In this document: positions 8,594 through 27,800 of the stretch, in pieces
How the letters are laid out: each line of letters opens with the position of its first letter
How positions within the stretch are numbered: the first letter of the stretch is position 1
Notes under the pieces: generated by a model
The model's input: the letters and a program-made list of their open reading frames with translations, nothing else
What the model was told of the DNA's origin: nothing
Database searches by the model: none
Position numbers and translations under genes: made by a program
Origin: a virus
IMG/VR virus record: IMGVR_UViG_3300047378_000853
Span: 1-30,163 of that record
Length of the DNA stretch: 30,163 nucleotides
Direction: 5' to 3' (one strand)

Positions 8594-11500
8594 ATGAGCC
8601 AATTATTAAGCGGAAAGGTTAAAGTAGTAAGACCATCCGATGTTTCGGAGGATAGGTACGAATATCTACGATTAAATGAAGCAGAACCAAACTTGGGTGT
8701 TCCTGAGAGTGGTTCACTTTCATCTGGGTCTATTGCGCTTGTTGCTTCCGATGCTGATGGTAATCGTTTATTTGTTACAACACTTCAATTAGAGCAAGTT
8801 ACTGGTTCTTTTAGTGGTTCATTTGCTGGAGATGGTTCTCAATTAAATAACCTTCCAGAAGCAGTAAGATTAATATCAGGTTCTGCATCCGCATCAATTT
8901 CACCTAATACTGGGTTTTTAGTAAACGTATCATCATCATTTGGTGGAGATATGGATGTTACTGGTGATGTAAGAGTTACTGGTGATTTAATTGTTGATAA
9001 TAGAATAGTAGCAAGAGAACTTATTGTTGAAATAATTTCATCTTCAATTATATTCTCATCTGGTTCAAACCGATTTGGTGAATTATCAACTGATAAGCAA
9101 GAATTTACAGGTTCGGTAGAAGTAACTGGTTCATTAGATGTATTTGGAGATACTACTATAAGTGGTTCTACATTTGTTAGTGGGAATGTACAACTAACTT
9201 CAGGTTCAGCATTTAGTGGTAGTGGTGAAAACTTATTCAACATTCCAAAATCAGCACTTACTGATGATGCACTACTCTCAAACTTAATAACAACAGGTTC
9301 AGTAACCGCATCTGTATCACCTGATGGTGTATTTAAAGTATTCGGAACTGGTTCAGTAACAACTGAATTAAGTGGTTCTTTATTTGTAAGTGGAAATGTA
9401 CAATTAATATCAGGTTCTGCTTTTAGTGGTAGTGGTGAGAACTTATTTAATATACCAAAATCGGCATTAACCGATGATGCATTACTTTCAAACTTAATAA
9501 CAACAGGTTCAGTAACGGCTTCCGTTTCTCAAGATGGATTCTTCAGAGTATTCGGAACGGGTTCAGTAACAACTGAGTTAAGTGGTTCGTTATTAGTTAG
9601 TGGAAATGTTAATCTTAATAGTGGTTCATCATTTAGTGGTAGTGGTGAAAACTTATTCAATATACCTCGTTCAGCACTTACTGAAGATGCATTAGAAACG
9701 AATTTAATTATTAGTGGAGCAGTAACTGCTTCAGTATCACCTGATACTGGTTTTGTAGTAAACTCATTAGATAGTGGTTCTACATTTACTGGTTCAGTAT
9801 TTCTAAGTAGTGGTTCATTCTTTAGTGGTAGTGGTGAAAACTTATTTAATATACCTTTATCAGCATTAGCTGAAGAAGTTGAAGTATCAACTAAAATACA
9901 ATCTGGTAATGTAACTGCATCTGTTTCAGATGAAGATGGGTTTGTTGTAACATCGGAAGCTAGTGGTTCTACATTCACTGGTAGTTTAAGATTAAGTAGC
10001 GGTAGTATATTTAGTGGTAGTGGTGCGGAGTTATTTGATATACCTCGTTCAGCACTTACTGAGGATGCTCTTATTACAAATAATATTAGAAGTGGTTCAG
10101 TAACCGCATCAGTTTCTCCAAACTTTGGATTAGTTGTAGAATCAGAATTAAGTGGTTCTACTTTTACAGGTTCTGTATTTTTAAGTAGTGGTTCATTCTT
10201 TAGTGGTAGTGGTGAAAAATTATTTAATATACCAAGAACTGCATTAACGGATGATGCACTTATTTCAAACTTAATATCTACTGGTTCAGTAACCGCATCG
10301 GTTTCAACTGATGGTTTCTTTAGAGTACAATCAACAGGTTCAGTAACAACTGAATTAAGTGGTTCGGTATTTGTTAGTGGAGCAGTTCAATTAAATAGTG
10401 GTTCAAAATATAGTGGTAGTGGTGAGGATTTATTTGATATACCATTCTCAGCACTTTCTAATGATGCACAAGAAGCAATTGAAGCTTTAGTAACAAGAGA
10501 AGCTGTATTTATAGCAAGTGGTAGTGTAACTGCATCAACTGAAGATAGTGTATTTAAAGTAACTTCTGATGAAAGTGGTTCTATCTTTATAGGAGATATT
10601 GAAATACCATCTGGAAGTGGATTCTTTAGTGGTAGTGGTGAAGGATTATTTAACATCCCTCGTTCAGCTTTAGTTGAAGATGCGTTATTATCGAACTTAA
10701 TTACAACTGGTTCGGTAAGTGCTTCCGTTTCAACTGAAGGTATATTTAAAGTATTTGGAACTGGTTCTATAAAATCAGAATTTAGTGGAAGTGTTTCTAT
10801 ATCAGAATCATTAGATGTTCCAAAAATCATAGCTGATGAATTCACTGGGTCATTAAGTGGTTCTGTAGCTGGAGATGGTTCACAACTTAATAACATTCCC
10901 CAATCAGCACTTTCTGAAGATGCTACACGAATAGCAAGTGGTTCAGCAACCGCATCTATTTCACCTAATTTAGGATTTGTAGTAAATACATCATCTTCTA
11001 TTGAAGGAGATTTATCAGTTAGTGGTAGAATAACAGCTGAAGAAATTTTTGTAAACTTTATTTCATCATCCATAGTAATATCTACTGGCTCAAACATATT
11101 TGGTGATGATTCAAATACTGATACTCAAAAATTATTTGGTGAAACTCAAATATTTGGGAATGTAACGGCAAGTGCGAAGATATCATCCAGTGGATTCGTT
11201 GGTGATGGTTCAGAACTATTTAACATACCACAATCGGCACTTTCGGAAGATGCACCATTAATATCAAGTGGTTCAGTAACGGCATCAGTTTCTCCAAATT
11301 TTGGATTTGTAGTAGAATCTACTGAGAGTGGTTCAACATTTAGTGGTTCTATACAAATTAGTGGAAGTGTAACACTTACATCGGGTTCATCTTTTAGTGG
11401 TAGTGGTGAAAACTTATTTAATATCCCACAATCGGCACTTTCAGAAGATTCTCCAAGAATATCAAGTGGTTCAGTTAGTGCTTCTATTTCTCCAAATTTA

Positions 11501-14500
11501 GGATTGATTGTAAATACATCTGCATCTATCGATGGTGATATCGATGTAAGTGGAGTTGTATCAGCATCTATCTTTAGTGGTAGTGGTGAATCATTATTCA
11601 ATATTCCATTATCAGCAATTACTGAAGAAGCATTTAGAATTGTTAGTGGTTCGGTAACTGCATCGGTTGACCCTAATAGAGGATTTGAAGTAAATTCAAC
11701 TGGTAGGTTCGATGATAGTATAACTACAAGTGGTAGTTTAATAGTATCAGCATCAACTTCTTGGGGACCTGATAATTTAGAAAAAATTGTAAAAGTTATT
11801 GGAACTGATGATGGTAACAAATATGAAATAGATGGAAAGAGACAACCATTACTTTATTTGGTAAGTGGTAGTACATACACATTCAATCAATCAGATTCTA
11901 CAAACGCTACACATGAAATAAGATTTTCAACAACTGATAATGGTACACACGCTGGTGGTGTTCCATTTACTGGTAGTGTAGATACTGGTAGTATATCTGC
12001 TGGTACAAATGGTTCACAAGTTACAATAGCAATAAACTTTAATACACCTGATACATTATACTATTATTGTTTGAATCACTCTGGTATGGGTGGGGAAATC
12101 AGAAAAGTACTTAGTTATCCAATTAGTGAAACTATAATAAATGATACAGTTGTTGTAACTGGTTCAATTTTCACAAGTGGTTCAATAACAACAACTGGTG
12201 ATATTGATACAAATATTGTTAGAGGTACTCAATTTAGTGGTTCATTTAGTGGTAGTGGTAGAGATTTATTTGATATACCTCTTTCAGCATTAGCAGAAGA
12301 TGTAGAAGAGTTATCATTTATCGCAAGTGGTAGTGTAACCGCATCAACAGATCCTGAATTTGGATTCAAAGTAAATACAACATCATCTATTGAAGGTGAT
12401 TTAAATGTAACGGGTGGATTATATGTATCTACTTCGGTAATTGAATTAGAAACTCTTCCAATTACTCAATCAGTAACTATTGGGCAGAACGGATTTGCAA
12501 TAAATGGTAATTTAAAGCAACCATTAAAATTCTTAAATGGACTTACATATCACTTTGATATATCAGATTCTTCTAACGCAAATAATCCAATAAAATTATC
12601 TCAAACGGTAGATGGTTCCCATAACACTGGTACTCAATATACAACTGGTGTAACAACAAATGGAACTGCTGGTAATAGTGGTGCATTTTTAAAATTAGAA
12701 GTTACTGATAATACACCAAAAAGATTATATTATTTTTCAACTCCATCAGCATCTTATGGTTCTTCTATAAAAATATTAGAAGAAGTTCCAACAATTTCAC
12801 AAAATATTATAAATGGTAATACTGAAATAACTGGAACATTAGATGTAAGTAGTATTTCATCTGCAGAAAAAATATCATCACCATTTATAACATCATCTTA
12901 TTTAACTTCATCGGTTATAGATTTTGTTACTGGTGAAAACACATTCCCATCTCAACCAGGTAGATTAAAGTGGAATGAAACCGATGGTACTTTGGATTTA
13001 GGAATGAGTGGAGGTTCTGCTTCATTACAAATCGGACAGGAATTATATTATCCAAAGGTAGTAAATAAAGCTGGTGAAAATCTAATCAATGGTACATTGG
13101 TAATGGTTGACCCAAACAATCCATCACAAGGTCAAAGAATTAGAGTTATTAAATCTATCTCAGATGGTACTTATGATTCTGATTTATTAATTGGTGTACT
13201 AACCGAAAATATAGATAATAATCAAGAAGGATTTGCTACTTGGTTTGGTATGGTTAGGGATGTAAAGGTAGACTTATTAGAAGATGCTGGGTTAAAATAT
13301 ACTGGTTCAACTTGGAGTGAGGGAGATATACTATATCCAGACCCACAAAGGGCTGGTGGTATGACAAATGTAAAACCTGAAGCACCTAATTTAAAATCAA
13401 CAATAGCACTTGTTGAAAGAGTAAATGGTGATAACATACAACTTTTAGTAAGACCACAATTAGGTAATCACTTAGAAGATTTACATGATGTACAAATAGT
13501 ATCGGCATCTAATAATGATATTATAGTATTTTCATCATCATCAAATAGGTTTGAAAATAGAAGTGATAATTTAGTACTAAGTGGTTCATTTAGTGGTTCA
13601 TATACTGGTGTTTATTTCGGAGATGGTTCAAACTTAGAAAATGTACAAGCGGCAGCTGCACCTCTTATCTCAAGTGGTTCTGCAACGGCATCGGTTGCAA
13701 GTGGTGATACGTTTGTAGTAACTGCACCCCAAAGTGGTTCAGAATTTACTGGTTCTATTGTAACATCTGGTTCAATAACTGTTGGTGGTGGTGGTAGATT
13801 TGTTGGTGATGGTAGTGGTTTAACTGATATCGATATAGCTAATTTAGCACTTACATTAAACGTATTAGAAAGTGGTTCAGCAACGGCATCGTTAGATGAA
13901 ACTGAATTTAAAGTATTTAATAACAATATAAGTACAAGTGTAGATTCATCTTTTAGTGGTTCGGTTAATATATCGGAATCATTAGATGTAGGTGGAATTA
14001 TTACTGGTGATGGTAGTGGAATTACAAACATTGATATTGCTAACTTAGCAATTGATTCATCAAAAATATTTACTGGTTCGGTAACTGCATCAGTTGACCC
14101 ATTAGGTTTCTTTAGAGTAGAAAACTTAGACCCAACACTTAGGTCTGGTTCAGTTAAAGTAGAAATTAGTGGTTCATTAGAAGTTTCTCAATCAATAACA
14201 GCATCTCTATATCGTGGTGATGGTGGTGGATTATTTAATATTCCATTAGATGCGATTGAAGATTTAGAATTAGATAGAATAGTATCGGGTTCAGCAACTG
14301 CATCAATTTCACCAAATAAAGGATTTTTTGCTAATACACAAATTAGTGGTACATTATTCGTTGGTGATGGTGGTGGATTATTTAATATACCAGCTGATGC
14401 ATTACAAGATTTACAATTACCATTAATCATTAGTGGTGGTGTAAGTGCTTCTGTTGAACCAAATGAAGGATTTAGAGTTTTCTCACCAACATATGGTTCT

Positions 14501-17500
14501 AAATTTACTGGTTCACTTAATATTAGTGGAAGTGTAACTATACCATCTGGAAGTGGATTCTTTAGTGGTAGTGGTGAAGGATTATTTAATATACCAGCTG
14601 ATGCTATTGTTGGATTAGACCAAAGTAGAATTCTTAGTGGTTCAGTAACTGCATCTACGAATCCTGATGATGGGTTTGTAGTAACATCGATTGCTAGTGG
14701 TTCAACATTCTTCGGAGAAGTTAATTTCCAAAATGATGTAAGTGCATCTAAGATAACTGTAACTGATGAAATATTCTCACCAAGAATTACATCATCATTT
14801 GTAGGTTCATATCAGGGTGAAAATGTTGGTATAGATGTACCTGATGATTTAGATATTTTAGTATTTGATGCAGCTGCAAATAAATTTAGACCTGTAACAC
14901 AATTTGGTGATACTGCTGTATTCCCATTCTCAGATGTAACTCAGGTAACATTCCAACACAATTTTGCTATTGATTATCCAGTAGTTCAAATTTATGAAAC
15001 TGGTTCAAATGGACAGATTATTCCACAAGCAATCGAATCAATTGATAGTTCATCGGTTAGAGTAACATTTAGTGGATTAACAAGTGGACAAGCAGTAATT
15101 GGTACTGGTGGTAGATTAGCAGGATTTGTAGAAGGTGATGATGTGGTAGGTTTAGTTAATTCAGCATCTTATGCATTATTTGCAGAAAACGCTGGAACGG
15201 CATCATCATTAGTAGGATTTGATTCAGCATCACTTGCTGAGTTAGGTAACTTATCTCAATATATAAAGAATAACCAAACTGCATCTATGACAGTTCTTTC
15301 AGCATCATATGCTGAAACTGCTTCATTCGCAGTAAACGCTGGTGATTTTAATACTGATAATTTTGTAAGAACTGACCAAACGGCATCGATGACTGTACTT
15401 TCAGCATCATACGCTGAATCAGCATCTTATGCTATAAACGCTGTATCTGCTGAAGATTATGTAAGAAATAATCAAACCGCATCGATGACTGTACTTTCAG
15501 CATCTTATGCGGCAACTGCTTCATTCGCTCTAAATGCTGGTGATTTTGTAGGAGAAAATTTCTTACCAAATAATGGTACTGGTTCATTTGTTGGAAGATT
15601 TGAAGTAAGTGGTAGTTTAGTAGTAACGGGAAGTACTGAGTTAATAGGATTAGAAACAGGTAGTTCAGATACAGTATTAGTAATAAATGAAACTACAAAT
15701 AGAATAGAAAAAAGAGATGTAACTGCAGTTAGTGGTACTTCTGGAACTGGTGGTACTTCTGGGACTGGTGGTTCATCTGGAAGTAGTGGTTCAGCAGGTA
15801 CATCAGGTACTTCTGGTACAAGTGGTTCATCTGGTTCAGCTGGAACGAGTGGAACGAGTGGAACTTCAGGTTCATCTGGGACTTCTGGAAGTAGTGGAAC
15901 AAGCGGTACAACTGGAACGAGTGGAACTTCAGGTACATCTGGTTCATCAGGTTCAGCTGGTACATCTGGTACGAGTGGAAGTAGTGGAACATCTGGTACA
16001 AGCGGAAGTAGTGGTACGAGTGGAAGTAGTGGTTCAAGTGGTACATCTGGTAGTGGAGGTTCTTCTGGTTCAAGTGGAACGTCTGGAACATCTGGTTCAG
16101 CTGGTTCTTCAGGTTCTTCAGGTTCTTCTGGAACGAGTGGAACGAGTGGAACATCCGGTTCATCAGGTAGTGGTGGAACTTCTGGAACAAGTGGAACATC
16201 GGGTTCATCTGGTAGAGAAGGTGGAAGATTATTTGTTGTAGAAAATGCTGGATTTGCTTATAGTTTTTCTGGATATACTGGAGATTTCCCAACAATTACA
16301 TTAGTAAGGGGAGAACTTTTCTATTTCGATGTAAGTGATGTTGCTTCATCTCATCCATTTGCACTAAGATTATCAGATGGAAATACAAACACAGTTCCGG
16401 GCACAACAAACAATGACCCAACAAATGGAAATCATTCAACATCAGTATTAGTAAAATATAGAGTACCGGAGGATGCACCTGATAGTATAGTTTATCAATG
16501 TGCTTCACACTCCTCAATGATTGGTACTATTCAAATAGTAGATAAGTACGGAACTTCTGGAACTTCTGGAACATCAGGTTCTTCTGGTTCATCTGGAACT
16601 GGAGGTTCATCAGGTTCTTCTGGTTCATCTGGTTCAAGCGGAACTTCAGGTTCTTCTGGAACAAGCGGAAGTAGTGGTTCTTCTGGTAGTGGAGGTACAT
16701 CAGGTTCTTCTGGTTCAAGTGGAAGTAGTGGAAGTAGTGGTTCTTCTGGTACATCGGGTTCTTCTGGAACGAGTGGTACATCTGGAACAAGTGGAAGTAG
16801 TGGTTCTTCGGGTAGTTCTGGTTCAAGCGGAAGCAGTGGTTCTTCTGGTTCAAGTGGAACAAGTGGAGCAGATGGTGAAGAAGGTTCATCAGGTTCAGCT
16901 GGTACTTCTGGTACGAGTGGTAGTAGTGGTAGTAGTGGTTCAACTGGTACAAATGGTACAAGTGGAACTTCTGGTACAAGCGGAACAAGTGGAGAAAGAG
17001 GTAGTAGTGGTTCAGCTGGTACTTCGGGTACTTCTGGTACAAACGGAACATCAGGTTCATCTGGTACAAGTGGAAGTAGTGGTACTTCGGGCACAAGTGG
17101 AACAAGTGGAACAAGCGGAACTTCTGGAACAAGTGGTACGTCTGGTAGTGGTGGAACCGCTGGTACTTCTGGTTCGAGTGGAACAACTGGAACCTCAGGT
17201 TCATCTGGAACTTCTGGTTCATCGGGTACTTCTGGAACAAGTGGTACAAACGGAACTTCAGGTTCAAGCGGAACTTCGGGTTCTTCTGGGACAAGTGGAA
17301 CATCAGGTTCAACTGGAACGAGTGGAACTTCTGGAACAAGTGGTACAAATGGAACTTCAGGTTCAGCAGGAACAAGTGGTTCAGCGGGTACATCAGGTAC
17401 ATCCGCAGAGGGAAGTAGTGGTACTTCTGGAACAAGTGGAAGTAGTGGAACTTCAGGTTCATCTGGAACAACTGGAACAAGTGGTACATCAGCTGAAGGA

Positions 17501-19756
17501 AGTAGTGGAACTGCTGGTACATCTGGAACAAGTGGAAGTAGTGGAACTTCTGGAACAAGTGGAACATCAGGTTCGTCTGGTACATCAGCGGAAGGAAGTA
17601 GTGGTACATCAGGAACAAGCGGAAGTAGTGGTTCAGCAGGAACAAGTGGTACAACTGGTACATCAGGTACATCAGCAGAAGGAAGTAGTGGTAGTAGTGG
17701 TACAAGTGGTACTAATGGTACATCAGGTTCAAGTGGAACTTCGGGCTCTTCTGGAACAACTGGTGAAGATGGTGAAGATGGTACAAGTGGTAGTTCTGGT
17801 AGTAGTGGACAAGATGGTACGTTCTTTGGTTCATCAGGTTCGTCTGGAACGAGTGGTTCAACTGGTACTGCTGGTTCATCTGGTATTAATGGTGTAGATG
17901 GTACTGATGGTACATCAGGTACAACTGGTAGAGATGGAACTTTCTTCGGAAGTTCTGGTACGAGTGGTACAAGCGGAAGTAGTGGAAGTAGTGGTTCTGC
18001 TGGAACTTCAGGTTCAGCAGGAAGTTCTGGAACAAGTGGAACAAGTGGAACAAGCGGACAAGATGGAACTTTCTTCGGTAGTAGTGGTACATCGGGTACA
18101 TCAGGTGAAACTGGTACATCTGGTACAAGTGGATTAGGTTCTTCTGGTACATCTGGAACTTCAGGTGTTGATGGAACATTCTTCGGAAGTAGTGGTACTT
18201 CTGGTGAAACTGGAACCTCAGGTACTTCTGGAGCTGGAACGAGTGGAACTTCGGGTTCTTCTGGAACAAGTGGAACAAGTGGGCAGGATGGAACATTCTT
18301 TGGTAGTAGTGGTACAACAGGTACTTCTGGTACATCTGGAGCTGGAACATCTGGAACATCTGGTTCAAGCGGAACTTCTGGTACGTCTGGTGTTGATGGA
18401 ACTTTCTTTGGTAGTAGTGGTAGTTCTGGTACTGATGGTACATCTGGAACAAGTGGATTAGGTACTGATGGTACGAGTGGTCAAAGTGGTTCTTCAGGAA
18501 CTACTGGAACAGGTGGTTCTTCTGGTACTGGTGGTACTTCTGGACAAGATGGAACATTCTTTGGAAGTAGTGGTACATCTGGTACTAATGGAACGAGTGG
18601 TTCATCAGGTACGAGTGGTTTAAGTGGAACTTCTGGTACTTCAGGTACATCTGGATTAGATGGTACATTCTTCGGAAGTTCTGGTACAAGTGGTTCTGAT
18701 GGTACTTCGGGTCAAACAGGTTCATCTGGTACGAGTGGTGTAAGTGGTTCTGCTGGTACGAGTGGTGTAAGTGGTACATCAGGTCAAGATGGTACTTTAT
18801 TTGGAAGTAGTGGTAGTAGTGGTACGAGCGGAAGTAGTGGTTCAACTGGTACTGCTGGTTCAAGTGGTGTAAGTGGAACTGCTGGAACATCTGGTTTAGA
18901 TGGTACTTTATTCGGTTCATCAGGTTCATCTGGTACATCTGGAAGTAGTGGTTCAACAGGAACTGCAGGTTCTTCTGGTTCAAGTGGTTCAAGTGGAACC
19001 GCTGGTACTTCTGGACAAGATGGTACTTTATTTGGCTCATCGGGTTCATCTGGAACATCTGGTTCGAGTGGAAGTAGTGGAACATCCGGTGTAGGTGGTT
19101 CAAATGGTTCATCGGGTACATCTGGTTTAGATGGTACTTTATTTGGAAGTAGTGGTAGTAGTGGTGTAAGTGGAACAAGTGGAAGTTCTGGTACATCAGG
19201 TGAAACTGGTTCATCGGGTTCATCAGGTTCTTCTGGTTCAAGTGGATTATTAAATGTAGCAAATGATGGAGCAGATAGAGTTCTTACTATGGATGGTGAT
19301 GGAACTGGAACTGCACAATCAAACCTAACATTTGATGGAGCTGATTTAGATGTAACTGGAAATGTACAAATAAGTGGTGAATTAGATGTAGATGGTGATT
19401 TTCTGGGAGCTACAACATTCTCTACAAGGTTCCACGAGAATTATAATAACATAGGAAATTCAACTGGTGGTACAACGATAGATTTATCAACGGCTAATAA
19501 TTTTAGAATTGATAGAATAGGTAGTATAACAATCGCTCTTTCAAACGCACCATCAGCCCCTCGTGCAATTGGATTTACATTATTGTTAGAGGATAGTAGT
19601 GGTGGTACGGCAACTGTAAGTTGGCCAGCATCAATACAATGGGCAAATGGAGCAGCACCAACACTAACGGCTGGTGGAAAAGATATATTAGTATTCTATA
19701 CTTATGATGGGGGGAGTACTTATTATGGATTCCTAAGTGCCAACAACATAAGTTAA
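8594..19756 (+). CDS. Giant collagen-like tail fibre / adhesin (3720 aa)
   Basis: A single uninterrupted frame from ATG 8594 to TAA 19756. The N-terminus (VKVVRPSDVSEDRYEYLRLN) resembles anchor regions that I recall from marine T4-like phage fibres. Residues about 207-613 carry regular 70/63-residue beta repeats, with diverged versions up to about residue 2060. Cupredoxin-like domains lie near residues 1055-1175, 1289-1400 and 2543-2652. A fibre-type domain spans about 1446-1632, and three NQTASMTVLSASYA repeats about 2227-2320. Collagen-like Gly-X-Y runs fill 2381-2542 and 2653-3551. The C-terminal tip has NFRIDRIGSITIALS and VSWPASIQWANG, a common phage fibre end. It probably trimerises through the collagen-like stalk and binds a host surface (inference). 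Weak initiation context: no clear Shine-Dalgarno, A-rich leader. Confidence 0.88.
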   Translation: MSQLLSGKVKVVRPSDVSEDRYEYLRLNEAEPNLGVPESGSLSSGSIALVASDADGNRLFVTTLQLEQVTGSFSGSFAGDGSQLNNLPEAVRLISGSASASISPNTGFLVNVSSSFGGDMDVTGDVRVTGDLIVDNRIVARELIVEIISSSIIFSSGSNRFGELSTDKQEFTGSVEVTGSLDVFGDTTISGSTFVSGNVQLTSGSAFSGSGENLFNIPKSALTDDALLSNLITTGSVTASVSPDGVFKVFGTGSVTTELSGSLFVSGNVQLISGSAFSGSGENLFNIPKSALTDDALLSNLITTGSVTASVSQDGFFRVFGTGSVTTELSGSLLVSGNVNLNSGSSFSGSGENLFNIPRSALTEDALETNLIISGAVTASVSPDTGFVVNSLDSGSTFTGSVFLSSGSFFSGSGENLFNIPLSALAEEVEVSTKIQSGNVTASVSDEDGFVVTSEASGSTFTGSLRLSSGSIFSGSGAELFDIPRSALTEDALITNNIRSGSVTASVSPNFGLVVESELSGSTFTGSVFLSSGSFFSGSGEKLFNIPRTALTDDALISNLISTGSVTASVSTDGFFRVQSTGSVTTELSGSVFVSGAVQLNSGSKYSGSGEDLFDIPFSALSNDAQEAIEALVTREAVFIASGSVTASTEDSVFKVTSDESGSIFIGDIEIPSGSGFFSGSGEGLFNIPRSALVEDALLSNLITTGSVSASVSTEGIFKVFGTGSIKSEFSGSVSISESLDVPKIIADEFTGSLSGSVAGDGSQLNNIPQSALSEDATRIASGSATASISPNLGFVVNTSSSIEGDLSVSGRITAEEIFVNFISSSIVISTGSNIFGDDSNTDTQKLFGETQIFGNVTASAKISSSGFVGDGSELFNIPQSALSEDAPLISSGSVTASVSPNFGFVVESTESGSTFSGSIQISGSVTLTSGSSFSGSGENLFNIPQSALSEDSPRISSGSVSASISPNLGLIVNTSASIDGDIDVSGVVSASIFSGSGESLFNIPLSAITEEAFRIVSGSVTASVDPNRGFEVNSTGRFDDSITTSGSLIVSASTSWGPDNLEKIVKVIGTDDGNKYEIDGKRQPLLYLVSGSTYTFNQSDSTNATHEIRFSTTDNGTHAGGVPFTGSVDTGSISAGTNGSQVTIAINFNTPDTLYYYCLNHSGMGGEIRKVLSYPISETIINDTVVVTGSIFTSGSITTTGDIDTNIVRGTQFSGSFSGSGRDLFDIPLSALAEDVEELSFIASGSVTASTDPEFGFKVNTTSSIEGDLNVTGGLYVSTSVIELETLPITQSVTIGQNGFAINGNLKQPLKFLNGLTYHFDISDSSNANNPIKLSQTVDGSHNTGTQYTTGVTTNGTAGNSGAFLKLEVTDNTPKRLYYFSTPSASYGSSIKILEEVPTISQNIINGNTEITGTLDVSSISSAEKISSPFITSSYLTSSVIDFVTGENTFPSQPGRLKWNETDGTLDLGMSGGSASLQIGQELYYPKVVNKAGENLINGTLVMVDPNNPSQGQRIRVIKSISDGTYDSDLLIGVLTENIDNNQEGFATWFGMVRDVKVDLLEDAGLKYTGSTWSEGDILYPDPQRAGGMTNVKPEAPNLKSTIALVERVNGDNIQLLVRPQLGNHLEDLHDVQIVSASNNDIIVFSSSSNRFENRSDNLVLSGSFSGSYTGVYFGDGSNLENVQAAAAPLISSGSATASVASGDTFVVTAPQSGSEFTGSIVTSGSITVGGGGRFVGDGSGLTDIDIANLALTLNVLESGSATASLDETEFKVFNNNISTSVDSSFSGSVNISESLDVGGIITGDGSGITNIDIANLAIDSSKIFTGSVTASVDPLGFFRVENLDPTLRSGSVKVEISGSLEVSQSITASLYRGDGGGLFNIPLDAIEDLELDRIVSGSATASISPNKGFFANTQISGTLFVGDGGGLFNIPADALQDLQLPLIISGGVSASVEPNEGFRVFSPTYGSKFTGSLNISGSVTIPSGSGFFSGSGEGLFNIPADAIVGLDQSRILSGSVTASTNPDDGFVVTSIASGSTFFGEVNFQNDVSASKITVTDEIFSPRITSSFVGSYQGENVGIDVPDDLDILVFDAAANKFRPVTQFGDTAVFPFSDVTQVTFQHNFAIDYPVVQIYETGSNGQIIPQAIESIDSSSVRVTFSGLTSGQAVIGTGGRLAGFVEGDDVVGLVNSASYALFAENAGTASSLVGFDSASLAELGNLSQYIKNNQTASMTVLSASYAETASFAVNAGDFNTDNFVRTDQTASMTVLSASYAESASYAINAVSAEDYVRNNQTASMTVLSASYAATASFALNAGDFVGENFLPNNGTGSFVGRFEVSGSLVVTGSTELIGLETGSSDTVLVINETTNRIEKRDVTAVSGTSGTGGTSGTGGSSGSSGSAGTSGTSGTSGSSGSAGTSGTSGTSGSSGTSGSSGTSGTTGTSGTSGTSGSSGSAGTSGTSGSSGTSGTSGSSGTSGSSGSSGTSGSGGSSGSSGTSGTSGSAGSSGSSGSSGTSGTSGTSGSSGSGGTSGTSGTSGSSGREGGRLFVVENAGFAYSFSGYTGDFPTITLVRGELFYFDVSDVASSHPFALRLSDGNTNTVPGTTNNDPTNGNHSTSVLVKYRVPEDAPDSIVYQCASHSSMIGTIQIVDKYGTSGTSGTSGSSGSSGTGGSSGSSGSSGSSGTSGSSGTSGSSGSSGSGGTSGSSGSSGSSGSSGSSGTSGSSGTSGTSGTSGSSGSSGSSGSSGSSGSSGSSGTSGADGEEGSSGSAGTSGTSGSSGSSGSTGTNGTSGTSGTSGTSGERGSSGSAGTSGTSGTNGTSGSSGTSGSSGTSGTSGTSGTSGTSGTSGTSGSGGTAGTSGSSGTTGTSGSSGTSGSSGTSGTSGTNGTSGSSGTSGSSGTSGTSGSTGTSGTSGTSGTNGTSGSAGTSGSAGTSGTSAEGSSGTSGTSGSSGTSGSSGTTGTSGTSAEGSSGTAGTSGTSGSSGTSGTSGTSGSSGTSAEGSSGTSGTSGSSGSAGTSGTTGTSGTSAEGSSGSSGTSGTNGTSGSSGTSGSSGTTGEDGEDGTSGSSGSSGQDGTFFGSSGSSGTSGSTGTAGSSGINGVDGTDGTSGTTGRDGTFFGSSGTSGTSGSSGSSGSAGTSGSAGSSGTSGTSGTSGQDGTFFGSSGTSGTSGETGTSGTSGLGSSGTSGTSGVDGTFFGSSGTSGETGTSGTSGAGTSGTSGSSGTSGTSGQDGTFFGSSGTTGTSGTSGAGTSGTSGSSGTSGTSGVDGTFFGSSGSSGTDGTSGTSGLGTDGTSGQSGSSGTTGTGGSSGTGGTSGQDGTFFGSSGTSGTNGTSGSSGTSGLSGTSGTSGTSGLDGTFFGSSGTSGSDGTSGQTGSSGTSGVSGSAGTSGVSGTSGQDGTLFGSSGSSGTSGSSGSTGTAGSSGVSGTAGTSGLDGTLFGSSGSSGTSGSSGSTGTAGSSGSSGSSGTAGTSGQDGTLFGSSGSSGTSGSSGSSGTSGVGGSNGSSGTSGLDGTLFGSSGSSGVSGTSGSSGTSGETGSSGSSGSSGSSGLLNVANDGADRVLTMDGDGTGTAQSNLTFDGADLDVTGNVQISGELDVDGDFLGATTFSTRFHENYNNIGNSTGGTTIDLSTANNFRIDRIGSITIALSNAPSAPRAIGFTLLLEDSSGGTATVSWPASIQWANGAAPTLTAGGKDILVFYTYDGGSTYYGFLSANNIS
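9212..10433 (+). repeat. 70/63-residue beta repeats with FSGSGENLFNIP signature
   Basis: The motif starts at 9212, 9422, 9632, 9821, 10010, 10199 and 10409, so the spacings are 210, 210, 189, 189, 189 and 210 bases. Each unit runs FSGSGExLFxIP, SALTxDAL, an SGSVTASVS segment and a short hydrophobic strand. The 63-residue form has SGSTFTGS in place of the longer GTGSVTTELSGS segment. Diverged copies, often as GDGSQLNNIP or GDGGGLFNIP, recur near 10630, 10870, 11200, 11395, 11575, 14215, 14360 and 14560. Others occur in the last gene near 22080 and 22275. A stacked beta-helix-like fibre shaft is the likely structure (inference). Confidence 0.85.
11757..12117 (+). other. Cupredoxin-like domain 1 in the giant fibre
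   Basis: Residues about 1055-1175. A strand pattern YLVSGSTYTFNQSD leads to ATHEIRFS (His1107), a DGTHAGG loop, and ends YYYCLNHSGMGG. Cys1159, His1162 and Met1165 lie in a Cys-x2-His-x2-Met arrangement. Blue copper proteins use an early His plus a late Cys, His and Met, so the first three candidate ligands are present. The Met is closer to the His than in plastocyanin or pseudoazurin, so metal binding is uncertain. I recall similar YYYCxNHSGMGG segments in marine phage structural proteins. Confidence 0.65.
12459..12792 (+). other. Degenerate cupredoxin-like domain 2 in the giant fibre
   Basis: Residues about 1289-1400. The scaffold matches domain 1: GLTYHFDISDSSNANN, a DGSHNTGTQYTTGV loop, and LYYFSTPSASYGSS at the end. 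The early His is replaced by Asn, and the Cys, second His and Met are all gone. This copy therefore keeps the fold pattern without any candidate metal ligands, and probably serves only as structure (inference). Confidence 0.6.
12930..13490 (+). other. Phage fibre structural domain (QPGRLKWNETDGTLDLGM type)
   Basis: Residues about 1446-1632. The segment reads GRLKWNETDGTLDLG, ELYYPKVVNKAG, LINGTLVMV, then a GVLTENID loop, ATWFGMVRDV, WSEGDILYPDP, and IALVERVNGDNIQLLVRP. I recall the same order in many phage tail fibre or structural proteins, where it has no enzymatic role. It is followed by HLEDLHDVQIVSASNNDIIV, a common connector to the next beta repeat. Confidence 0.6.
15272..15550 (+). repeat. 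Three NQTASMTVLSASYA repeats
   Basis: The motif begins at 15272, 15374 and 15470, giving spacings of 102 and 96 bases. Each copy has xQTASMTVLSASYA followed by ETASFAVNAGDF or a variant. The alanine/serine-rich heptad-like spacing could form a short coiled-coil neck just before the collagen-like stalk (inference). Confidence 0.8.
15734..16219 (+). repeat. Collagen-like Gly-X-Y stalk, first segment
   Basis: About 160 residues with glycine at every third position. The X position is almost always Ser or Thr, and Y is mostly Ser with a few Ala, Thr or Gly. No proline is present. It ends at GREG, directly before the third cupredoxin-like domain. Confidence 0.9.
16220..16549 (+). other. Cupredoxin-like domain 3 embedded inside the collagen-like stalk
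   Basis: Residues about 2543-2652. VRGELFYFDVSD is followed by ASSHPFALRLSDGN (His2587), and the domain ends YQCASHSSMIGTIQIV with Cys2636, His2639 and Met2642. Collagen-like repeats flank it directly on both sides. It has the same candidate ligand set as domain 1. A globular insert here would make a bulge or branch point along the stalk (inference). Confidence 0.65.
16550..19246 (+). repeat. Collagen-like Gly-X-Y stalk, second segment, with spaced interruptions
   Basis: About 899 residues of Gly-Ser/Thr-Ser triplets without proline. Two kinds of interruption recur. TSAEGSSG occurs four times, with the Ala codon at 17405, 17492, 17588 and 17675. DGTFFGSSG or DGTLFGSSG occurs twelve times, with the Asp codon at 17813, 17933, 18062, 18170, 18287, 18395, 18548, 18659, 18788, 18899, 19019 and 19130. 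The first eight are FF and the last four LF. The extra residue in TFF or TLF shifts the triplet register by one. Confidence 0.9.
19247..19753 (+). other. C-terminal fibre tip domain of the 3720-aa protein
   Basis: Residues about 3552-3720. A hinge with VLTMDGDGTGTAQSNLTFDG and VTGNVQISGELDVDG leads to a beta-rich end with NFRIDRIGSITIALS, IGFTLLLEDSSGG, VSWPASIQWANG and DILVFYTYDGG. I recall this end domain from tail fibres and other structural proteins of many phages. It is the most distal part and therefore a candidate for tip contact or trimer capping (inference). Confidence 0.65.
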
Positions 19757-19769
19757 TGAGTTATGAATT

Positions 19770-20693
19770 ATGAGTATAGCAAGAAGATTATTATCAATAG
19801 AAGCAGGACAAGTGAGACCTTTTAAATTTACAATACAAACAACATCAACAAATACTCAATTTGAGTTACCTATTACTGCGCCAGGTGGAAAACAACCTAA
19901 TATAACAGTAAGTTGGGGTGATGGTAGTAGTGATTCTATAATTACATCAACAACATCATCTGATAGATTTCATACATATTCAACTGCTGGTAGTTATCAA
20001 ATTATAGTTAGTGGATATTGTCCGGGTTTTAGTGTTGGTAATAACACATCATACAAAAACTTATACAAATCAGTTGATGATTGGGGAGTAGTTCAGTTTG
20101 AAGAAATTGATTTTTATGGATGTATTAATTTAACAACTATACCAGCGGATGGTTCTAATAACGCAACATTAAATGATGGATTAAATACTGTATTAAGATT
20201 TAACTCTACATTTAGACAAACTGGTATTACAATAATACCCAATGGTTTATTTGATTATTCAACAAATGTAACTTCATTCGTTAACACATTCGTATTTTGT
20301 CAAGGATTAACAGCAATACCATCTGGTTTGTTTGATAACAATACAAATGTAACATCATTTTCGGGTACATTTAACGCATTGTTAAATTTAACAACAATAC
20401 CAACAAATTTGTTTGATAATAACGCATTAGTAGTAAACTTTGAATCAGTATTTAGAAACTGTAGAAAGGTGGCTGGAATTCCAAGTCAGTTTTTTACTAA
20501 TAACCAACAAGTTACTACTTTTGCAAATGCATTTAATATGGCAACTACATCAAACTTATTAACTGGTGTAACTCCAACTGATTCAAATGGTGATGAGATT
20601 TTTGAAAGAACATCAAATCCAATTGGTACTGATTGTTTTGCTTTTTGTAGTGGTTTAACTAATTTTGGTTCAATACCAGCAACATTTAAATAA
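19770..20693 (+). CDS. PKD-like plus BspA-type leucine-rich repeat protein (putative adhesin)
   Basis: The 307-residue frame starts 13 bases after the giant fibre stop. After a short N-terminus (MSIARRLLSIEAGQVRPFKF), residues about 18-90 resemble a PKD-like beta domain with ITVSWGDGSSD and FHTYSTAGSYQIIVSG. Residues about 110-265 contain repeats near 26 residues such as NVTSFVNTFVFCQGLTAIP, SGLFDNN and LTTIPTNLFDNN. These match the BspA / DUF285 leucine-rich repeat pattern seen in bacterial surface proteins. No signal peptide or membrane anchor is evident, which fits a virion component better than a host surface protein. A role as an adhesin tip or fibre accessory is inferred. An LRR protein of unknown function is the fallback. 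No Shine-Dalgarno is seen; the start was chosen because it opens the frame right after the upstream stop. Confidence 0.7.
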   Translation: MSIARRLLSIEAGQVRPFKFTIQTTSTNTQFELPITAPGGKQPNITVSWGDGSSDSIITSTTSSDRFHTYSTAGSYQIIVSGYCPGFSVGNNTSYKNLYKSVDDWGVVQFEEIDFYGCINLTTIPADGSNNATLNDGLNTVLRFNSTFRQTGITIIPNGLFDYSTNVTSFVNTFVFCQGLTAIPSGLFDNNTNVTSFSGTFNALLNLTTIPTNLFDNNALVVNFESVFRNCRKVAGIPSQFFTNNQQVTTFANAFNMATTSNLLTGVTPTDSNGDEIFERTSNPIGTDCFAFCSGLTNFGSIPATFK

Positions 20694-20699
20694 AAAGAT

Positions 20700-21158
20700 A
20701 TGTACTTAAAAGTTTCAGGTTCAACAATAATTTATCCATATTCCATTCAAATATTAAAGAATGAGAATCCTACCATTAGTTTTCCAACAACGATAAGTAA
20801 TGATTTATTACAATCATACAATGTATATCCAGTTGAGTTGAAAAGTAGTGGGTACGATACTGATGATACAAAGGATGTAACTGAAGTTACACCTACTTTA
20901 TCTGGTTCGGTTTATATACAAACATATGAAATAACTGATGCGGATACTGAAACAATAAACAAAAGAAAGGAAATCAAATGGTCAGAAATAAGAAGTACGA
21001 GAAATACTTTATTATCGGAGTCAGATTGGACACAATTTCAAGATTCACCAATAACAGGTTCATCACTAACCGATTGGCAAACTTACAGACAATCACTAAG
21101 AGATGTAACAACACAATCAGACCCATACGATATTACTTGGCCAAACAAACCTTCTTAG
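20700..21158 (+). CDS. Tail-assembly-chaperone-like protein (152 aa)
   Basis: The start lies six bases after the previous stop, behind AAAAAGAT. The N-terminal half is a beta-like domain (MYLKVSGSTIIYPYSIQILK). The C-terminal half has RKEIKWSEIRSTRNTLLSES, DWTQFQDSPI, then WQTYRQSLRDVTTQSDPYDI and WPNKPS. The combination of RN-x-LL-x-x-x-DW, W-x-x-YRQ-x-LRD and a final WP-x-x-P is the pattern of phage tail assembly chaperone / fibre assembly C-terminal domains (family memory, not searched). Such proteins are usually encoded beside the fibre they help assemble, which fits its place between two giant fibre genes. In some phages this domain is part of the virion, so the chaperone role is inferred. 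Confidence 0.65.
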   Translation: MYLKVSGSTIIYPYSIQILKNENPTISFPTTISNDLLQSYNVYPVELKSSGYDTDDTKDVTEVTPTLSGSVYIQTYEITDADTETINKRKEIKWSEIRSTRNTLLSESDWTQFQDSPITGSSLTDWQTYRQSLRDVTTQSDPYDITWPNKPS

Positions 21159-21890: not shown

Positions 21891-24800
21891 ATGGAATACG
21901 GAGGAAAGAACCCAAACGGAATCAATCAGGTCAGTCAAAGTTTACTTTCGATTGATGTTCAAGGTGTAGAACAATTAAACATATCAACCTCATCGGTTGA
22001 TATTAATACGTCTTTGAATGTTGAAAGCGGAATAACTGCATCATCATTTACTGGTTCTTTTACTGGTTCATTCAAAGGAGATGGTTCTCAATTAGAAAGT
22101 ATTCCAACTACTGCACTTACTGGTGATATTGGTAGAATAGCTGAAGGTTCAGCAACCGCATCAGTTTTAAATGGTACTTCATTCGAAGTAAATGTACCTA
22201 CAAACATAGATGGTAATGTAACATCAACTGGAGATATTGATATTGAAGGTGAAATGTCAGCATCGATATATAGAGGTGATGGTGGTGGATTATACAACAT
22301 CCCAGCTGATGCATTAGGTGATATAGATAGATTAAAATCAGGTTCAGTAGAAGCTATAATTTCACCTGATGGTGGTTTAAGAGTAGAAGCTGGTGTAACT
22401 GTAAGGGATTATCTTATCGTAACTGGTAGTAGTATATTCAAAGCAACTGCACAAGTAGGAACCGATTTAACAGTAACAGGTTCAGCAGATATACAAAACA
22501 ATTTAACTATTGGTAATAATTTATCAGTAGCGGGAAGAATAACTTCTCAAGAATTATTAACAACATTTATTTCATCATCAGTAATTTACGCATCGGGTTC
22601 GAATGTGTTTGGTGATGAATCAACCGATACACACCAATTTACAGGTTCAGTATTAATTAAAGATTCGGTAGTAATTCCAGTCTTTAATTCAGCACCTTCT
22701 GGTGGTGTAGTTGGACAATTATATTATAACACTTCAGATACTAACATTTATCGTTATACTGCTGGTGGATGGGAACCTGCAGCTGGTACTGCTGGTACAT
22801 CGGGTACAAGTGGTACTTCCGGTAGTGGAGGTACATCTGGTTCTTCAGGTTCAAGTGGAACTGCTGGAACTGGAGGAACTTCTGGTTCTTCAGGTACTTC
22901 TGGTTCTGGAGGGACAAGTGGTTCTGGTGGTAGTTCTGGTACTGATGGTTCTGAAGGAACCTCAGGTAGTGGTGGAACAAGTGGTTCTGGTGGAACAAGT
23001 GGTTCTGGTGGAACATCAGGTTCTTCTGGTACATCTGGAAGTGGTGGAACAAGTGGAAGTGGTGGAACTTCTGGTTCTGGAGGAACAAGCGGAAGTGGTG
23101 GAACAAGCGGAAGTGGAGGAAGTAGTGGTTCTGGTGGAACCTCTGGTTCAAGTGGTTCATCTGGTTCATCAGGTAACGATGGAGCTGATGGTGTTGATGG
23201 TGCTGATGGTGATGATGGTACATCTGGTGTAGATGGTACTGATGGTACATCAGGAAGTGGAGGAACTTCTGGTTCAAGTGGTACATCTGGTTCATCTGGT
23301 TCTTCAGGTGAAGATGGTGCTGCTGGTGAAGGTGGTACACCTGGTACTTCTGGTAGTGGAGGAACTTCTGGTTCAAGTGGTTCATCTGGTTCATCCGGCT
23401 CAAGTGGTACATCTGGTGAAGATGGAACATCGGGTTCATCTGGTTCATCTGGTACATCTGGAAGTAGTGGTACATCTGGTAGAGATGGTGCTGCTGGTGA
23501 GGGTGGTACGCCGGGTACATCTGGTTCATCGGGTTCAAGTGGAACGAGTGGTAGTGGAGGAACATCAGGTTCTTCTGGTTCATCGGGTTCAAGTGGAAGT
23601 TCTGGAACAAGTGGTAGTGGTGGTTCATCAGGTACTGCAGGTAGTGGAGGTTCATCAGGTACAAGTGGAGCAACTGGTGCTGATGGAGAACAAGGTGTAG
23701 ATGGAGATGATGGAACATCAGGTTCTTCTGGTTCAAGTGGAACAAGTGGAAGTGGTGGAACATCAGGAAGTGGAGGTTCATCTGGTTCATCTGGTACATC
23801 AGGTAGTGGAGGAACGAGTGGTTCAGCTGGAAGTAGTGGAACTTCTGGAACTGGGGGAAGTGGAGGAACATCAGGTTCTTCTGGTTCATCTGGTACTGCT
23901 GGTAGTGGTGGTACATCTGGTTCAAGTGGAAGTAGTGGAACTTCAGGTAGTGGAGGTACATCCGGCTCTGGAGGAACAAGTGGTTCTGGGGGTACAAGTG
24001 GTTCTGGAGGAACATCAGGTTCTTCTGGTTCTAGTGGTACTTCTGGTAGTGGAGGTTCTTCTGGTTTATTAGCATTAACTGGTACTACTAATAATGGTGT
24101 AATTACACTTAATGGTTCAGCACCAAACGGAACTGTTGAAAGTAATCTTACTTTTGATGGAACAACTCTAAACATAACAGGTAATCTGAATGTAACAGGT
24201 ACTCAAACAATTGTGAATACCGAAACTATTCAGTTAGCAGATAATATTATTACTCTTAATTCAAACTTTACATCAGGTACTCCATCGGAGAATGCTGGTA
24301 TTGAAGTTTTAAGAGGTTCATCAGCAACTAAACAATTTATTTGGAATGAAAGTAGAGATAGTTGGATTGCTGATTCTCATTTAGAGGCTCTTGGAAATAT
24401 TGTAGCAGGAACTACATCTAAACAATCAAATACTGCTATTCAAGTACTAGCAGGAGATTCATATCGTGCTGGATTTGAGGCTTATGGTAGTGGTCAAGGT
24501 ACAGGTTATCTTTATGTAGGACAATCTGCAACATATGGTGGTGGTATTTCTTATAATGGAGATAATTCACCTGCATTTATTAGTGGTGAGGGTTCTGACC
24601 GAATTACTTTCTTTAGAAGGGAAGCCGGAACAAATACAGAAGTATTTAGCTATTCTTATGCAAATAGCCAAGTAGACTTTAATGGTACAATAACTGCTGC
24701 AAATATCAACACTGGACAAGGTACAACTGAGGTTTATCTAATGAATCAAAATGTTCGTACAACTGACGCAGTAACATTCGCAACTGTAAATACTGGTCAT

Positions 24801-27800
24801 GGTGCAAACGAATTGTACGCAATGAATCAAAATGTTCGTACATCCGATTCAGTAGTATTCTCTCAGTTAAGAGTAAACGAATATATTAGACATAATGGTG
24901 ATGATAACACTTATGTTAGATTTAGAGGAGATGATTTACAATTAGTAGCTGGTGGTAGAAATATCATAAGAATGGATGAAGGTACTGACCCAGATAAAGT
25001 AGAATTAGGGGATTCGAGTACTCAAACATATACTGAAGGACAATTAATTGTTGGAGATGCATCACCAACATATACTATAAACGATAATACTCCAATAGTA
25101 GGTTCAAATACTAATAATGTACTACATATCGATGGTTCAATTCAGTTAAAAAATAATAACGATGCTATTGTAATTGGTAGAGGTACATCAACATTCCTTA
25201 AAGATGAAGAACTTGGATTCGGATGGGGTGGTGGTTGGTATATGACCGATGGTACTTACCTAAGAGTAAGAAATAATAAAATTCTTTATTCAACTGGTGA
25301 ATTTTGGGCTAGTAGATTTAATGATGTAAATGATACTGGATATTATGGTGATTTCGCATCTACATCAAATTTAAATAATCTCAATGTTAATCACTTTGGT
25401 ATAAACAATAGTAGTAGTGGAACAAGAGATGGTATATCTTTATATGGAGGATATTCAGCAGGTGAACCTACTTATGGTATTTTATTCACAGGTACAAGTT
25501 TAGGAACACATGGTGGTGTAACTGGTGATTGGGCTACATACTTTACAATGAGTAACACTTCTAATAGAGGTTGGATATTCAGAAGAGTGGGTAGTGGTAA
25601 TGCTGCTAGTATCTCAGCTGCTGGTTTAGGACAATTTAATGATAGTGTTCGTGCACCAATCTTTTATGATACAAATAATACGGGAAGATATGTAGACCCA
25701 GCTGGAACATCTTCGATGTTGAATATCAATATGAATAATGGTACTTTAAGTAATGTTAATCATATTACAATAAATGATCCTGGTGCTAGTGAAGGTATCC
25801 AATGGTTAAATGGTAATGATTGGAGAATCTATGAATCTCCTGATAATATGAGTAATTCATCGGGTAATTTACAATTTACTCAAGGTACTACATTTAGATT
25901 CAGAGTAGATACATCAGGTAATAGTTGGTCATCCGCATCATCCAGAGCACCTATTTTCTATGATTCAAATAATAGTGGATATTACTTTCATGGAGATGGT
26001 ACTACACAAATGTATCGTACTGAAATTAATAATCAGTTAAGATTAGAAAGTGGAGCACCAATTTATTTATACACATCAGCTGGAAATCAAAGAGGATATC
26101 TTCAAGCAACTGATACAAACGATGCTCATTTAATTATAGCAACATCAGGTGGTGAAGATATTTCATTCAGAGATGGTGGTTTAGGTGGTACATGGAATCA
26201 AATCATTAGAGGAGATGGACAAGTTCTGATTAATTCTAGACTTGATGTTCCTATAATGTATGATAGAAATGATACAAACTATTACGCAAATCCTGCTGGA
26301 ACTTCTGTATTTAACGGATTAACTGTTGGTGGATACAACGTTCTTACTGGTGGTAATCTTGAAAATTATGTAGCAAATATTGAGAATGGTTCATTCTACA
26401 ATATTACTGATTCAATGACTGATGCTGAAGTAAGAGCACAACTTGGTACAACATCAACTAAGGTAACTAAAGTAGATGATAGTACTGCACCGGCAGAAGG
26501 AGCATTTAAAGTTACTGGTTATTTAGGATTTGATGATGGTAGATATATTAAGATTGATAAAGAATCTCAATATACTTTTGAAGTTTGGGTTAAAGTAATT
26601 GATGGTGGTGATAGCAACCAAAGATTATATATGGGTTGGACAATGTATGATAGAAATAAATCATCATATGGTAACTCTAAAAGATATTGGGGTTCTGGTG
26701 GAAATCAATTTGATACTAACTCTAATACAAATGGTTGGTATAAAGTAACTGGAAAAATAAAAGGTACAGGATTCCATGCAGATGCTCAATACGCTAGACC
26801 AGTACTTCTTTTTAATTATTCATCAAATGTGGGTGTAACTCATTATTGTGGATTAAAACTTTACAAATCAGAGCAGAGTCTTGGTAGATTAAGATTACAT
26901 GGTAGTTATACTAATAATGCTTCATATGTTCATAACTTAACTGACCAAAGATATCCATACATTGAAGGTGGTGATAGTAACGCATTAAGAATACAATCAA
27001 ATAGTGGATATGTTGATTTTGGAGCAATGAATACTTCACATCTTCATATGTACACCGATAGAGGTTCATTCTATACCAACAAGATGATGTACATTAATGG
27101 TGGTACTGAATTAAGACAGGGTGATGTTAGAGCATCTATATTCTATGATAAAGATACTACATCAAGATATCTAAATCCGAATGGTACATCAAGAGTAAAC
27201 GAAATTGAAATATACGATACTATAAGAATGACTAATTATGGTATTGGTATCACTGGTACATATACATCTACAAGATTACAAACTATCTTTAATATGGATG
27301 ACCAGTATTCTATCGCACAAGATGGTAATGCTACAAATAACGCATATGGTTTATATTGGTCTCATCCAAACGCAGGTTCATTAGGTGGAGCTAACAACTT
27401 AAATGACCATGGTTTATTGATTATCAATAATGGTTCATTTAGAGCAGCAATCTCAAGTAGAGCAGTATTTAGTTCTGATGTTAGAGGTACTCAATTCTAT
27501 GATTACAATAATACTGGATATTATGTAAATCCAGCAGGTCAATCTCATATGAATACTCTTACCTTAGCAGGTAATAGAATCGGATTCATCAATACATCAT
27601 TTGATGCTGAAATTAGAGTATCTGATTCTAATCCTGATGGAACTGGTGCAGAATTTACATTCTATGGTGATACTGGAGCTAGAAACGCACAACTTTCAGC
27701 CGAAGTAGGTAGTTTTAACGCAAGAGTTAGAACACCTATAATGTATGATTACAATGATAGTGGATATTATGTTGACCCTAATTCACTTACTAATCTTAAT

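Follow-up and report, generated by a model that had tools for sequence, protein, structure and literature searches.

A periodic aromatic G3G cassette in the collagen-like stalk of a phage tail-fibre family

Introduction

Trimerising collagen-like proteins are established in phages, both for EPclA (PMC3368898) and for gp12 of phage SPP1 (PMC6316719). Here we describe a tail-fibre open reading frame (ORF) in the 30,163-base IMG/VR virus record IMGVR_UViG_3300047378_000853 (the whole of this stretch of DNA is called the window below), in which the collagen-like stalk is interrupted at regular intervals by a short aromatic motif, the cassette, built around G-T-[FL]-F-G. The closest described proteins, EPclA and EPclB of E. 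coli prophages, are, like the fibre of the window, tail-fibre proteins of phages in which a Gly-X-Y stalk is combined with a trimerisation domain at the C-terminus; however, EPclA has a short stalk of 111 residues, and EPclB-type proteins have one conserved interruption that is unlike the cassette (PMC3368898). SPP1 gp12 is likewise a phage homotrimer with a central collagen-like fold, but it is a capsid accessory protein of 64 residues rather than a long interrupted fibre (PMC6316719). A Pfam scan of the fibre ORF at E<=0.01 found neither the PfN (PF08400) nor the PfC (PF06820) domain of EPclA and EPclB.

Non-fibrillar animal collagens contain conserved breaks of the Gly-X-Y register with one or four residues between glycines (G1G and G4G), often with hydrophobic residues. 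Both of these classes are also found in the phage stalks studied here, but unlike in animal collagens the main class is G3G, with one near-invariant sequence at a spacing of about 40 residues. Interruptions in the other viral collagen stalks that we sampled are likewise often periodic and lineage-specific, suggesting that such interruptions are common in viral collagens, but these stalks differ in carrying G5G interruptions (G[AL]S[QRK]TSG, mostly 21-27 residues apart) or G6G interruptions (such as GAASTVAG, mostly 16-22 residues apart), both without the aromatic pair. Periodic G5G and G6G stalks were seen in our sets B and C, for example L271, L274, L348, L413 and L448. The 735-kb uncultured phage LR756501 also has GTS-rich stalks, and one of its ORFs holds one exact copy of the motif and degenerate copies of the form DG[TNS]F[FLY]G, but these form no regular array; the regions at about 100-124 kb and 392-421 kb of LR756501.1 are rich in Gly-X-Y ORFs, the longest of about 3,500 residues. 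Phage collagens and collagen interruptions are as such already known. The new element here would be the periodic aromatic G3G cassette, of which the literature searched, with few subscription journals and preprints, gave no description.

Twelve cassettes in the stalk of the window

The fibre ORF (8594-19756; all features of the window given here are on the forward strand) encodes 3720 residues and matches PHROG tail-fibre entries and, with high significance, the Gly-X-Y profile of the Pfam Collagen family PF01391 (E=3.5e-98; 321.8 bits against a cut-off of 27.2). It consists in order of repeated N-terminal modules, a short proximal Gly-X-Y segment (15734-16231), an inserted domain (16232-16549), a main Gly-X-Y stalk of 899 residues with no proline (16550-19246) and a beta-rich C-terminal head domain common to the family (19232-19753, from our alignment A1). 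The Pfam match and the precedent of known phage collagens point to a homotrimeric triple helix as the probable structure of the stalk. The conversion of 0.29 nm per residue used in PMC3368898 would give the main stalk a length of about 260 nm and one cassette interval a length of about 11.5 nm.

The 3720-residue ORF contains exactly 12 GT[FL]FG motifs, and a pattern search of the whole record gave 12 matches on the forward strand, none on the reverse strand and none for a reversed-pattern control. The glycine codons of the GT pairs start at 17816, 17936, 18065, 18173, 18290, 18398, 18551, 18662, 18791, 18902, 19022 and 19133. Of the FF type are cassettes 1, 3, 5 and 7 (GQDGTFFGSSG; 17807-17839, 18056-18088, 18281-18313 and 18542-18574), 2 (GRDGTFFGSSG; 17927-17959), 4 and 6 (GVDGTFFGSSG; 18164-18196 and 18389-18421) and 8 (GLDGTFFGSSG; 18653-18685), while cassettes 9 and 11 (GQDGTLFGSSG; 18782-18814 and 19013-19045) and 10 and 12 (GLDGTLFGSSG; 18893-18925 and 19124-19156) have LF. 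The spacings of 120, 129, 108, 117, 108, 153, 111, 129, 111, 120 and 111 bp, the change from FF in the first eight copies to LF in the last four and the shift of register by one residue per cassette all agree with an earlier note on this sequence. That note had ended the zone at 19140, where the last cassette in fact runs to 19156, and had counted four residues between the glycines. G-T-F-F-G has three (T-F-F), making the cassette a G3G interruption that belongs to neither the G1G nor the G4G class, while separate G1G and G4G breaks exist in the same stalk.

Four G1G breaks that had been overlooked, GLG at 18131-18139, GAG at 18230-18238, GAG at 18338-18346 and GLG at 18455-18463, cancel the register shift, and it is because of these compensating breaks that four of the cassette spacings, counted in residues, are 0 modulo 3. 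The same rule of +1 per cassette and -1 per G1G break holds in 462 of 467 intervals of relatives, and an extra G1G break near the middle of the interval is present in 102 of the 467. The cassettes are confined to the distal, head-proximal half of the stalk; every Phe of the stalk sits in a cassette, and F, Y, L, V, I and proline are all absent from the proximal half. The residue preceding the Asp is, in order, Q R Q V Q V Q L Q L Q L along the window, an alternation of Q with other residues that is unlikely by chance (P about 0.002). The residues before the Asp are as given in the earlier note, but the alternation is absent from relatives, and a two-unit repeat was rejected for this reason.

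Conservation and spacing among relatives

One tail-fibre family has the cassette in the distal half of its stalk, as a periodic element conserved at the protein level. When viral contigs were scanned, by means of a degenerate pattern, for DNA that could encode G-x-D-G-T-[FL]-F-G, at least 119 viral stretches matched, many with 5-17 copies, and 53 arrays with three or more copies were kept after removal of redundancy. Their consensus is G-[LQVFK]-[DN]-G-T-[FLYNM]-F-G-S-S-G, in which T and the second F hardly vary while the neighbouring position (F/L/Y/N/M) and the preceding position are tolerant. An open catalogue of interruptions in this set, which was fetched with the motif, gave GT[FLYMN]FG or rare FN/FV forms for 950 of 955 G3G interruptions. 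Accepting N for D filled most double-length gaps and brought the total to 483 spacings, 89% of which lie within 34-46 residues and 95% within 31-52; those of 28-60 residues have a mean of 39.8 and a standard deviation of 4.1 residues. Before the N-type copies were added, 28 of 43 arrays were already more regular than random placement at p<0.001. Homologous stalks with random spacing and an unconserved motif, which the earlier note had named as the result that would speak against its claim, are thus not what was found: the motif is conserved, and its spacing stays at about 40 residues. Stalk lengths in relatives are mostly near 1,000-1,060 residues with a range of 627-1,317, and given this range a strict stalk length was dropped in favour of a loose constraint. 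Its presence in every relative found makes the cassette look like a genuine structural device rather than a chance product of repetitive DNA.

As this first set of arrays was fetched with the motif, two independent tests were added. In the first, which was blind to the motif, the head-domain alignment A1 was searched against viral contigs and the best 80 of 238 loci were kept; the head queries came from motif-bearing fibres, and the test covers only the heads nearest to them. A readable head was present in 79 of these best 80 loci, and at least three cassettes lay upstream of it in 79 of 79 (35 distinct). The distant heads of isolates (33-38% identity) sit on short proteins with no room for such a stalk. 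The second test concerned other collagen-like stalks. A second collagen-like fibre of the window (21891-30161, running off its end) has a cassette-free stalk and serves as an internal control, and G3G interruptions are rare in other viral stalks, with 7 of 561 in a GTS-rich pattern set and 12 of 273 in a proline-containing pattern set. A tblastn search of the stalk against isolate phages gave no matches, likely owing to low-complexity masking, so that absence from isolates is not thereby proven. In six phage records that are related or collagen-rich, pattern searching turned up just one match, and a pattern scan of genome contigs returned, among the matches listed, only single scattered ones that we read as chance. 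A third sequence match, to 8zxl, aligned through a generic GAPGSQGAPGLQ repeat and was set aside as compositional only.

The DNA differs in 11 of the 12 copies of the window (over D-G-T-x-F-G-S-S), and both serine codon families are used. In comparisons with the divergent orthologues L033, L061, L066 and L047 the proportion of nonsynonymous differences (pN) is 0.09-0.18 in the motif vs 0.31-0.33 in the linkers at a similar proportion of synonymous differences (pS), and for a nearer pair (L103) the values are 0.017 and 0.043. The twelve copies, with LF in the last four, are kept in divergent orthologues. Motif copies at lag 1 have a DNA identity of 0.80 and those at lag 10 one of 0.75; neighbouring copies are thus slightly more alike than distant ones, making tandem duplication a likely origin. 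Since then, selection on the protein has kept the motif in place.

Possible roles of the cassette

The earlier note had offered kinks, inter-chain clasps or lateral docking points as functions of the hydrophobic pairs. There is strong support for the cassettes as functional elements that are conserved and regularly placed along a hydrophilic stalk; the choice among these three comes down to readings of graded likelihood. The likeliest of several mechanisms, although short of an even chance, is that the cassettes act as small inter-chain plugs. All three chains have the same extra residue, and they would pack the invariant Phe and the adjacent F/L/Y against one another, with Asp/Asn-Gly-Thr capping the turn, so that the chains could stay in register across the inserted residue. 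The distal half would in this way become a series of short cooperative rods linked by hydrophobic nodes, which may double as bending points of the fibre. The near-fixed T and second F beside tolerant neighbours suggest that each chain buries a single residue and caps the turn, which makes the plug our best guess, and the strictness of conservation favours a device built in between the chains.

Several observations weigh against this. The proximal 420 residues of the same stalk are free of cassettes, as is one GTS stalk of LR756501 that is about 2,000 residues long, and the downstream collagen stalk of the same operon has no cassette in 4,641 triplets over 32 loci. These stalks imply that there is no general need for cassettes to hold such chains together. 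A triple helix formed from proline-free GTS/GSS sequence is itself putative. A fuller proposal is that this proline-free collagen stalk has a distal half made up of cooperative segments, each about 40 residues long and held by an aromatic stutter plug, by which a trimer of about 260-300 nm would be registered and zipped from the head without proline or hydroxyproline; we offer it as a tentative one that we consider less likely than not to hold in full. If the cassettes are plugs, they would provide an example of in-register assembly of a very long collagen-like fibre that uses neither proline nor hydroxyproline, and would bear on the folding of bacterial and viral collagens and on designed collagens. 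The cassette can also serve as the sequence signature of this tail-fibre family, whose phages are uncultured and abundant.

An alternative to which we give a smaller, still appreciable chance is that the cassettes are flexible joints, breaking the helix so that the distal half bends every 11.5 nm or so and the head can search the cell surface, the aromatic pair only limiting fraying. Interruptions in collagens are commonly flexible, the cassettes are restricted to the half of the stalk that adjoins the head, and the additional mid-interval G1G breaks would fit such joints. However, a plain hinge would accept many sequences, in contrast to the near-fixed T and second F, and constraint on the motif is 2-4 times that on the linkers.

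Slightly less likely again, in our estimate, is a role in docking, in which the hydrophobic pairs would serve along the stalk as binding sites for other proteins, other fibres or the surface of the virion. Conserved hydrophobic pairs repeated on an otherwise hydrophilic stalk are what such sites would look like, and the same five downstream genes, found in 32 of 32 loci, offer possible partners. The spacing, however, scatters over 11-15 triplets, which at about 36-51 degrees per triplet would place the sites on different faces of the helix and argues against rigid lateral docking. Nor does the length of the motif zone track that of the second stalk (Spearman -0.24, p 0.19), leaving docking onto the second stalk unsupported.

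It is improbable that the GTS/GSS stalk is some other glycine-rich trimer or a disordered linker with the cassettes as its only ordered points. The stalk of the window lacks proline and we know of no structure of such a GTS/GSS sequence, but apart from the counted shifts glycine is kept strictly at every third residue, as a triple helix requires, in all but five of the 467 intervals of relatives. Least probable, and disfavoured as the whole story, is that the regularity was left behind, without function, by duplication of a unit of about 120 bp: the slightly greater likeness of adjacent copies would fit, but codons have diverged while the protein motif, the twelve copies and the terminal LF set were preserved, and the spacing remains near 40 residues across diverged phages.

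Head, operon and phage affiliation

The head domain was modelled by AlphaFold2 with a predicted local distance difference test (pLDDT) score of 82, and in a Foldseek comparison the predicted fold resembles the Pa223 capsid spike (E=3e-4) and many phage fibre tips. The gene order after the fibre is constant in 32 of 32 loci: a protein of 290-311 residues, a tail-fibre assembly chaperone, two small proteins and the second collagen fibre. In the window the first of these genes (19770-20693; 307 residues) has a weak PKD-like start (E=0.018, below the cut-off) followed by short repeats of the type IPxGLFDxxTNVTSF, and the chaperone (20700-21158; 152 residues) matches PF16778 (E=9e-18). The PHROG tail-fibre matches, the PF16778 chaperone and the fibre-type fold of the tip together characterise the protein as a phage tail fibre.

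Of the 38 parent contigs, 7 encode a T4-like major capsid protein of the Gp23 type, among them the contig of the near-identical relative L009. The window itself is a fragment that lacks Gp23. The nearest named records to this Gp23 are Microcystis phage Mel-JY01 and Flavobacterium phage immuto (49-52%), in whose records a pattern search did not find the cassette motif. Some members of the cassette fibre family are therefore, as judged from Gp23, T4-like phages.

The inserted domain of the fibre, of about 107 residues between the two Gly-X-Y segments, gave no match in a Pfam scan and is cupredoxin-like by eye (SHPF...YQCASHSSM), with similar stretches also earlier in the ORF. Directly before the cassette zone the main stalk has four G4G interruptions (GTSAEG; 17396-17683) that start at 17396, 17483, 17579 and 17666, 29-32 residues apart, and such breaks are also present in the orthologues L033 (where the fourth copy is TSAI), L047 and L066. 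The N-terminal part of the fibre contains, at 9159-10306, tandem repeats of 189-210 bp that encode modules of the SGSGENLFNIP type.

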